64,000 bases of DNA from Enorma burkinafasonensis (GTDB taxonomy: Bacteria; Actinomycetota; Coriobacteriia; Coriobacteriales; Coriobacteriaceae). Positions 40,947-52,225 of the stretch are shown here, piece after piece. How positions within the stretch are numbered: the stretch's first letter is position 1; each line of letters begins with the position of its first letter. The notes beneath the pieces are model-generated. The model was not told where the DNA came from, did not search any database, and saw only the letters and a program-made list of their open reading frames with translations. The translations under genes were made by a program, and so were the position numbers. The DNA lies in assembly GCF_902150035.1 (NCBI RefSeq), contig NZ_LR597501.1:1-64000 (forward strand). Direction: 5' to 3'.

Positions 40947-40975
40947 TTGACCGCGAACAGCTGTTCGCATATGAT
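40947..40975 (+). promoter_or_regulatory. recA promoter with embedded SOS box
   Basis: TTGACC 40947-40952 and TATGAT 40970-40975 are 17 bases apart. The palindrome CGAACAGCTGTTCG 40954-40967 lies exactly in the spacer and matches the Gram-positive LexA consensus CGAAC-N4-GTTCG. LexA bound there would block RNA polymerase. Confidence 0.85.
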
Positions 40976-41003: not shown

Positions 41004-42098
<1,095 letters not shown>

Positions 42099-50414: not shown

Positions 50415-51056
50415 CTATCCGAGGCGACGCATCAGGGCGACGACTTTACCGAGGATCTGCGGGTTGTCGGCGTAGATGGGCTCCATGGCGTCGTTCTCGG
50501 GCTGGAGGCGCACACGGCCGCGCTCCTTGTAGAACGTCTTGACCGTCGCCTCGCCGTCGATCATCGCCACGACGATCTCGCCGTTCATGGCGCTCTTCTG
50601 CTCGCGGACGATGAGGTAGTCGCCGTTGTAGATGCCGACGTTGATCATCGAGTCACCATGGACCTCGAGGACGAACGAGGAGGAATCGGTTGCGATCTCG
50701 GTGGGGAGCGTGAAGGTGTCCTCGACGTTCTGCTCGGCGAGGATCGGCATGCCGGCGGCGACGCGGCCGACCAGCGGGAGCGATACGGTGCCGCGCTCGG
50801 GTGACTCCTTGACCTCGGCGAGGTTGACCGAGGAACCGTCCTCGTTGAAGAGCTCGAGGGCGCGCGGCTTGGTGGCATCGCGCTTGATGAGACCGCGCTC
50901 CTCCAGGGCGCTCAGATGGGCATGCACCGTGGAGGGGGAGGAGAGGCCGACGGCTGCAGCCATCTCGCGCACACTGGGCGGATAACCCTTCTCCAGCTGA
51001 TACGAACGGATGAAGTCGTAGATCTGCTGCTGGCGCTTCGAGATCTTGCGTGCCAT
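50415..51056 (-). CDS. lexA: SOS repressor LexA
   Basis: LexA represses SOS genes and cleaves itself when RecA filaments form. The N-terminal winged helix covers about residues 1-70. The cleavage site Ala-Gly is at 101-102 in GRVAAGMP, and the catalytic pair is Ser136 in HGDSM and Lys173 in ATVKTFY. Length is 213 residues. The start codon at 51056-51054 has AAAGGAGC upstream and gives MARKISKRQQ; a start 24 bases further upstream is rejected. SOS boxes fill the gap to the divergent LysM gene. Confidence 0.96.
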   Translation of the reverse strand: MARKISKRQQQIYDFIRSYQLEKGYPPSVREMAAAVGLSSPSTVHAHLSALEERGLIKRDATKPRALELFNEDGSSVNLAEVKESPERGTVSLPLVGRVAAGMPILAEQNVEDTFTLPTEIATDSSSFVLEVHGDSMINVGIYNGDYLIVREQKSAMNGEIVVAMIDGEATVKTFYKERGRVRLQPENDAMEPIYADNPQILGKVVALMRRLG

Positions 51057-51073
51057 CGGAGCTCCTTTCAAAC

Positions 51074-51143
51074 CAAACATTTGTTCGATTTCTTCTTGAC
51101 AGGAACAACTGTTCGAAGATAATGATATACGAACATCCGTTCT
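51074..51143. promoter_or_regulatory. Three SOS (LexA) boxes in the lexA / LysM intergenic region
   Basis: CAAACATTTGTTCG 51074-51087, GGAACAACTGTTCG 51102-51115 and CGAACATCCGTTCT 51130-51143 each match CGAAC-N4-GTTCG with one or two differences. On the plus strand TTGACA 51096-51101 and GATAAT 51118-51123 (16-base spacer) form a promoter for the LysM gene. The second box lies in its spacer and the third over its start point. The first box lies within about 30 bases of the lexA start codon and should control lexA itself. Confidence 0.85.
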
Positions 51144-51210
51144 TGCGCCAGACCTTTTGTCCGGGCCGCACGGTATAACAGGTTCGACACAAGCAGAGAG
51201 GAGACGCGTT

Positions 51211-51672
51211 ATGTACCAGGATTGCCTTATCGACGGGAACCTCGCCCTTTCCGTCAGCCAGAACCCGTCTCAGGAACCGAGCCGTCGTTTCGAGACCAAG
51301 ATCTACGCGCTGCCGGCGCAACATGTCTCCAAGGCGTCCGCACCTCGCGTTTCCGCTAAGCATCAGGCATCCTCGCTGCCGAAGCTGGCTTTGTCCCTAA
51401 TCGCCGTGACCGCTATGGTCGCCGCATTGGTCTTTGTCGCCCATGCCGTCGTCGCCCACGAGTCGTCGGCGTTCGAGGAAGCTCTCGCCACCACGGCGAC
51501 GCAGAGCGTGGAGGTCCGCCCGGGCGATTCTCTCTGGGCGCTTGCGGAAGCGTATCCGGTAGAGGGCATGACGACACAGGATACCGCCGAGCTCATCCGT
51601 GCGTGGAACGGTCTCGAGTCGGCGACGCTGCAGCCCGGCATGGAGCTTTCGGTCGCCTCCCAGGCCGATTAA
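51211..51672 (+). CDS. LysM-domain membrane protein, likely SOS cell-division inhibitor (YneA-like)
   Basis: The protein has 153 residues: a cytoplasmic N-terminus of about 55 residues, one membrane helix (about 58-82) and a C-terminal LysM domain (SVEVRPGDSLWALAEAY, about 99-148) that should bind peptidoglycan outside. ATG 51211 has GAGAGGAG upstream. It is divergent from lexA and has LexA boxes in its promoter. In Bacillus subtilis the gene divergent from lexA is yneA, a LysM membrane protein that stops division during SOS. Same place, control and architecture suggest the same job, though the 55-residue N-terminal tail is longer than in YneA. Confidence 0.78.
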   Translation: MYQDCLIDGNLALSVSQNPSQEPSRRFETKIYALPAQHVSKASAPRVSAKHQASSLPKLALSLIAVTAMVAALVFVAHAVVAHESSAFEEALATTATQSVEVRPGDSLWALAEAYPVEGMTTQDTAELIRAWNGLESATLQPGMELSVASQAD

Positions 51673-51781: not shown

Positions 51782-52225
51782 ATGCGCTGTCCCAAATGCG
51801 GCGGCGATGACACCCGCGTGGTCGATTCGCGCATGCAGGATGCCACCAACGCCATCAAACGCCGTCGAGAGTGCCGTTCCTGCGGGTACCGGTTCACGAC
51901 GTTTGAGCGTTGCGAGGACCCCATCGAGGTCATCAAGAGCGATGGCACGACCCAGCCGTTCGACCGCAACAAGCTGCTCGTCGGCCTCATGAGGGCAACC
52001 TCGAAACGCGATATCGACCTCGCGCAGCTCAACGGCCTCATCGACGATATAGAGCTCGAGCTTCGCGGCAGGACGCTACGGGCTGTATCCTCCCATGAAC
52101 TCGGCGACATGGTACTTAAGCGCCTCGAGCGCATCGACAAGGTCGCGTACATCAGGTTCGCTTCCGTCTATCGCGATTTCAAGAACATCGAGGAGTTCCT
52201 CCAGGAACTCGACAAGCTGAGGTGA
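51782..52225 (+). CDS. nrdR: Transcriptional repressor NrdR
   Basis: NrdR senses ATP/dATP and represses ribonucleotide reductase genes. The zinc ribbon has CPKCGGDDT and CRSCGYRF, with RRRECRSCG before the latter. An ATP-cone (VIKSDGTTQPFDRNKLLVGL) follows. Length is 147 residues. ATG 51782 has AAGGAGGAGA upstream. Its stop overlaps the region used to start dut; both act on nucleotide pools. Confidence 0.96.
   Translation: MRCPKCGGDDTRVVDSRMQDATNAIKRRRECRSCGYRFTTFERCEDPIEVIKSDGTTQPFDRNKLLVGLMRATSKRDIDLAQLNGLIDDIELELRGRTLRAVSSHELGDMVLKRLERIDKVAYIRFASVYRDFKNIEEFLQELDKLR

Follow-up and report, generated by a model that had tools for sequence, protein, structure and literature searches.

The gene at positions 51211 to 51672 of the window, by which we mean the whole 64,000-nucleotide stretch of Enorma burkinafasonensis DNA analysed here, probably encodes an SOS-induced division inhibitor, in which a single membrane helix would act on the late divisome, a motif of the cytoplasmic tail would form a second functional part, and the LysM domain would be accessory. 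Judged by its position and predicted architecture, the gene is the counterpart of mycobacterial ChiZ and of Bacillus YneA, and its kind is already known. The reading as an inhibitor is favored by LexA boxes at recA and at a Y-family DNA polymerase gene, by a gene block kept in all related loci compared, by a conserved promoter, and by a ChiZ-like architecture. The features on which the argument draws are collected in Table 1.

Table 1. Features of the lexA locus and of the recA box in the window
Feature	Positions	Strand	Basis and remarks
LexA box CGAACAGCTGTTCG before recA	40954-40967 (12-mer 40955-40966)	no strand	exact; 37 bp before recA (41004-42098)
lexA, SOS repressor	50415-51056	minus	start 51056, stop 50415; 213 residues, N-terminus MARKISK
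LexA box 1 AAACATTTGTTC	51075-51086	no strand	one mismatch to GAACNNNNGTTC; 18 bp from lexA start
-35 element TTGACA of the LysM-protein promoter	51096-51101	+	sequence; position relative to box 2 conserved
LexA box 2 GAACAACTGTTC	51103-51114	no strand	exact 12-mer; within the 16-bp promoter spacer
-10 element GATAAT	51118-51123	+	sequence; conserved; spacer to -35 of 16 bp
LexA box 3 GAACATCCGTTC	51131-51142	no strand	exact 12-mer; just past -10
Ribosome-binding site AGAGGAG	51197-51203	+	sequence; relatives agree on start choice
Putative SOS-controlled one-helix LysM protein, ChiZ/YneA type	51211-51672	+	ATG 51211; 153 residues
Tail motif GNLAL, residues 9-13	51235-51249	+	G, A and L invariant in 15-row tail alignment
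Second tail element RFETKIYALP, residues 26-35	51286-51315	+	genus variant of FTVIEGG
Single membrane helix, about residues 59-82	51385-51456	+	sequence
LysM domain, residues 101-148	51511-51654	+	PF01476, 38.8 bits, cut-off 20.9
nrdR	51782-52225	+	TIGR00244, 179.7 bits; next gene downstream in 70/70 loci

The product of lexA scored 232 bits against TIGR00498 (cut-off 111; NCBIfam profile search) and matched the Pfam families LexA_DNA_bind (PF01726) and Peptidase_S24 (PF00717). Between this gene and the divergent LysM gene, two exact LexA boxes and one near match lie on and around the promoter, as in a LexA-repressed (SOS) gene. The boxes follow one another at 28 and 28 bp and, taken as 14-mers, cover exactly 70 bases (51074-51143), which bears out the sequence-only reading of lexA beside three LexA-like boxes in 70 bases. 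A triple of comparable tightness arose in one of 400 windows simulated under a first-order Markov model of the window, and a three-box array in none of 21,000 shuffled intergenic regions derived from 70 loci. One half-site of the lexA-side box is nearly always weakened: the box reads AAACNNNNGTTC in most families and GAACNNNNGTTT in Eggerthellaceae, and the weakened AAAC half-site of box 1 is common to nearly all relatives outside Eggerthellaceae. Such a conserved weakness suggests a tuned autoregulation of lexA.

Coriobacteriaceae-type (f1), Atopobiaceae-type (f2), and Eggerthellaceae (f3) loci retain the promoter and the placement of box 2 within its spacer, the first two family names being inferred assignments. 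Two boxes had been placed on a plus-strand promoter when the DNA was first read; the two promoter elements, their 16-base spacing, and the location of box 2 in the spacer stand, whereas box 3 begins 8 bases beyond the -10 element and thus lies over the likely start site and not on the promoter itself. With this geometry of boxes and promoter, LexA would occlude RNA polymerase directly.

Outside the locus, the box before recA independently attests this LexA motif within the window, and elsewhere in the genome a Y-family DNA polymerase gene has two exact boxes, 89 bp apart, at its start (G000:C13:303457 and 303546; L078, L079). The SOS regulon of the window genome was surveyed around exact boxes only, and these were not enriched genome-wide (28 vs 37 for a reversed-pattern control). 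Consequently, a lone box proves nothing, and the argument is carried by position and conservation. In this context, the proposal that LexA controls the LysM gene gains support from boxes and a promoter conserved across the class and from the recA box. A further exact box lies about 90 bp upstream of a P-loop ATPase gene (G000:C16:140099, L082), which could be either a member of the SOS response or a chance occurrence.

The predicted protein has the one helix and the outer LysM domain already recognized from the letters of the sequence, and its N-terminal cytoplasmic tail, then put at about 55 residues, measures about 57. The basic residues before the helix point to an orientation with the tail inside and LysM outside. 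The Pfam search found no catalytic domain in this protein, and a whole-genome search returned exactly one PF01476 match in the window genome, namely its LysM. A low-confidence structure model built from the single sequence (mean pLDDT 47.6, insufficient for fold searching) showed a helix at residues 58-93 and an unstructured tail, suggesting that the tail is disordered.

One-helix LysM genes divergent from lexA were widespread in Actinomycetota in our locus survey, and genes of the same kind are known from Bacillus and Mycobacterium, so that the locus, earlier read as the SOS division checkpoint of this actinobacterial lineage, is not special to it. Against the NCBIfam YneA model NF010723, the window protein scored 44.2 bits (E 1.4e-11), below the curated cut-off of 60, a failure which counts against the inhibitor reading; a ChiZ-type sequence likewise remained below the cut-off (35.6 bits). 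The alignment places residues 68-147 on model positions 9-84 of 87, spanning the helix and the outer LysM. The likeness to YneA that had been claimed therefore holds for the architecture of helix and LysM, while the subthreshold score, the long tail, and the lexA/nrdR setting fit ChiZ better. Indeed, sequence lengths agree with the ChiZ order of long tail, helix, linker, and LysM, disorder of the tail being only suggested, and the gene is divergent from lexA with nrdR next in all 70 class loci. The same order is found in mycobacterial-type loci; two of these, L214 and L215 (lexA divergent, nrdR next), we take to be of the mycobacterial ChiZ type.

In ChiZ of Mycobacterium tuberculosis (Rv2719c) the tail has 64 residues, compared with about 57 in the window protein, and in both it is followed by a helix, a linker, and LysM; ChiZ-type tails in the loci compared are rich in Arg and Pro and lack the GNLAL that the window protein has. 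ChiZ is induced by DNA damage and produces filaments upon overexpression (PMC3989709, PMC7355643); interaction with FtsI and FtsQ is a further trait of the ChiZ type. Bacillus subtilis YneA shares with the window protein a lexA neighbor, one helix, and an outer LysM, but has almost no cytoplasmic tail. Moreover, one-helix inhibitors adjacent to lexA are a recurring kind, of which DivS and SosA have no LysM (PMC6851548). DivS of Corynebacterium glutamicum, likened here by description, is induced in the SOS response and suppresses division; it is encoded near lexA, has a single membrane segment (PMC3989709, PMC6851548), and differs from the window protein in lacking LysM (PMC6851548). SosA of Staphylococcus aureus, which is divergent from lexA, LexA-controlled, and one-helix without LysM, resembles the Eggerthellaceae version described below, but requires its extracellular C-terminus, whereas the Eggerthellaceae proteins end almost at the predicted helix. 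SidA of Caulobacter crescentus, an SOS-induced tiny membrane inhibitor of 29 residues that binds FtsW (PMC4211646), belongs to the same size class as a 23-residue microprotein of the Adlercreutzia type, to which it is unrelated in lineage and locus.

Within the class Coriobacteriia, the LysM protein was found in 111 of 149 genomes, and the block of lexA, boxes, LysM protein, and nrdR recurred in 70 of 70 related loci. Among LysM-type loci, the three-box array was present in 32/32 from the family of the window (f1), 12/13 from the Atopobiaceae-like family (f2), and 23/25 from outer families. Near residue 10, the tail has the motif G[NST]xAL, followed about 15 residues further by an FTVIEGG-like element in f1 and f2, which takes an FETKIYALP-like form in the genus of the window. 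This motif occurred in 29 of the 32 Coriobacteriaceae/Atopobiaceae-type proteins and in 37 of the 44 proteins of the Eggerthellaceae set (shuffled mean for that set, 0.28), and in none of 25 proteins from families outside Coriobacteriales, the apparent exception L063 belonging to f2. By its distribution, the motif is common to the order Coriobacteriales. Furthermore, in each of the genomes tried, the sole significant match to the tail profile was the SOS membrane gene.

In f3, the third family of the order, the 149-genome search yielded no match to the LysM protein except one weak hit interrupted by stops. The L101 stretch of this family is that of Adlercreutzia caecimuris (L116) and the L093 stretch that of Hugonella massiliensis (L136), and f3 falls with named Eggerthellaceae in one clade of the LexA tree. 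These identical named stretches and the single clade indicate that f3 is Eggerthellaceae, the sister family. In this family, the divergent neighbor of lexA retains the boxes and promoter in front of it and encodes a protein of mostly 73-188 residues that has the tail motif and a C-terminal helix and stops 0-6 residues past the latter. With a tail profile built from LysM-bearing proteins only, about 29 LysM-less proteins outranked every one of 880 shuffled decoys, and a tail motif beyond chance, together with the same position relative to lexA, boxes, and promoter, marks the Eggerthellaceae version as a homologue of the window protein. Both tail elements are kept in a Slackia locus (L147) and a relative (L284), as FTVLRG and LEVIPGG. 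The Eggerthellaceae proteins gave no convincing Pfam or NCBIfam family, and their alignment-based structure model (pLDDT 63.7) was confident for the C-terminal helix only.

In whole-genome searches, PF01476 had no match in 14 genomes of the Eggerthellaceae type or in two of f2. A LysM suggested by a loose text pattern in L104 and L279 was rejected, since both proteins end at the helix and the L104 genome has no PF01476 match. In the f2 locus L087 the tail motif is kept and LysM is gone, and on the LexA tree the absence of LysM requires at least two changes, in f3 and in f2 (L087). Since LysM is present in outer families, in other Actinomycetota, and in Bacillota, loss is the simpler reading, and LysM would have been lost at least twice. 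Because Eggerthellaceae keep tail and helix without LysM, these two parts, rather than LysM, look like the core in Coriobacteriales. The idea of the tail as a possible second functional part, raised in the sequence-only reading, is supported by its conserved motif and by its retention in LysM-less proteins.

These losses bear on the proposal that LysM is the effector of an SOS division inhibitor in the style of B. subtilis YneA, with the helix finding FtsW, LysM binding the new glycan strand, and the tail setting stability or level, for instance as a cytoplasmic protease site, a proposal that we regard as unlikely. In YneA, the helix binds the FtsW segment TM7 and LysM must bind peptidoglycan through its binding residues (PMC13396833); D46, the Asp with which YneA binds peptidoglycan, probably corresponds to D106 of the window protein (in GDSLW), whose LysM is the only one of its genome and is kept in Coriobacteriaceae- and Atopobiaceae-type genomes. 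However, the domain that is essential in YneA has been dropped across the Eggerthellaceae relatives, where the gene keeps tail and helix, and ChiZ reportedly works without it, its tail and helix being sufficient for filamentation in the account cited by PMC7355643 (Vadrevu 2011). Since YneA and ChiZ disagree on the need for LysM, neither mechanism is transferable whole. GNLAL could serve turnover, as a degron, instead of inhibition, which counts against the inhibitor reading favored here.

Smaller forms stand at the same locus. Short forms consisting of a juxtamembrane segment and a helix have 34-50 residues, the 34-residue form being that of genus g182. In an Adlercreutzia-type genus (g13), eight of the eight genomes read (L101, L231, L233-L238) have a 23-residue reading frame of the type MARYEFPIAFALSTIASFVIFFA, a helix only, with promoter and start position as in longer relatives; in most Eggerthellaceae, the start codon lies about 34-36 bp downstream of where box 3 begins. 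The 23-residue frame has 11, 5, and 19 variable columns of 23 at codon positions 1, 2, and 3, and its synonymous to nonsynonymous codon differences number 157:106, whereas the other two frames give 31:241 and 10:262; this contrast strongly indicates that the frame is translated, and it is under purifying selection. When its helix was compared with longer members, the best similarity score (34) equaled the largest of the shuffles, and the link is made by position and promoter rather than by sequence. These forms would represent one LexA-controlled Coriobacteriales locus with a fixed promoter, stripped stepwise from tail, helix, and LysM (Coriobacteriaceae and Atopobiaceae types) to tail and helix (Eggerthellaceae), then to the juxtamembrane segment and helix, and finally to the lone helix (Adlercreutzia-type genus). 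If all of them are division inhibitors, the helix would be the smallest effective part, the GNLAL tail would add a second contact particular to Coriobacteriales, and LysM could be dispensed with, a scheme to which we give an even chance.

The same series makes it improbable that the gene encodes an SOS-induced envelope or wall-stress protein, whose LysM anchor would protect or remodel the wall with no role in division: such a task is beyond the forms without LysM and the 23-residue form that stand behind the same promoter. The LysM family is known to bind peptidoglycan, and ChiZ was initially called a wall hydrolase, but work cited in PMC7355643 later deemed this probably a false positive; no hydrolase activity is claimed for the window protein, whose lack of a Pfam catalytic domain also speaks against the envelope reading.

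In some Eggerthellaceae and Atopobiaceae-type genomes of a few genera, the membrane gene is missing and the boxes directly face nrdR (L127, L133, L135, L267, L268, L270, L271, L275, L281, L289; L088, L089), an arrangement that may bring nrdR-dut under SOS control in these genomes. Such genomes would suit boxes serving lexA autoregulation and the nrdR-dut side, with the LysM protein as an operon passenger, an explanation that scarcely survives the fixed place of promoter and start codon for the membrane gene in most Eggerthellaceae and the purifying selection on its frame even at 23 residues.

According to the division-inhibitor reading, LexA bound to boxes 2 and 3 would block RNA polymerase directly in the undamaged cell, and box 1, with its one weak half-site, would tune lexA itself. 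Upon damage, RecA would provoke LexA self-cleavage and the promoter would open; the protein would then insert into the membrane, its tail in the cytoplasm and its LysM domain on the outer side. Guided by its helix, it would reach the late divisome (FtsW/FtsI), where septal wall synthesis would stall. Through its motif (GNLAL plus the FTVIEGG element), the tail would probably dock a divisome partner located in the cytoplasm or close to the membrane, with LysM as an accessory. We infer induction and the division block from regulation and homology, and FtsW as the presumptive target, like the tail partner, is suggested by ChiZ, YneA, SosA, and SidA.

Gram-positive SOS division inhibitors have a common address beside lexA and little common sequence. 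YneA needs LysM and ChiZ reportedly does not, and Coriobacteriia provide what amounts to a natural set of deletions behind a single promoter, spanning the gut genera Gordonibacter, Adlercreutzia, and Slackia together with relatives of the window genome. For these organisms, we found no SOS study in the open-access literature, and likewise no relevant paper on SOS in Coriobacteria or Eggerthella. The question of the minimal inhibitor becomes directly testable, with GNLAL/GTSAL as a short motif to mutate, and the loss of LysM in the sister family, in one genus down to a 23-residue helix, points to helix and inner tail as the working parts. The series may also bear on the response of gut bacteria to DNA-damaging drugs.

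In the families outside the order (L037-L070), the tails are rich in Arg and lack the motif, and most of the proteins end in A-x-R (such as ASR, AQR, and AMR), which a C-terminal protease may recognize.
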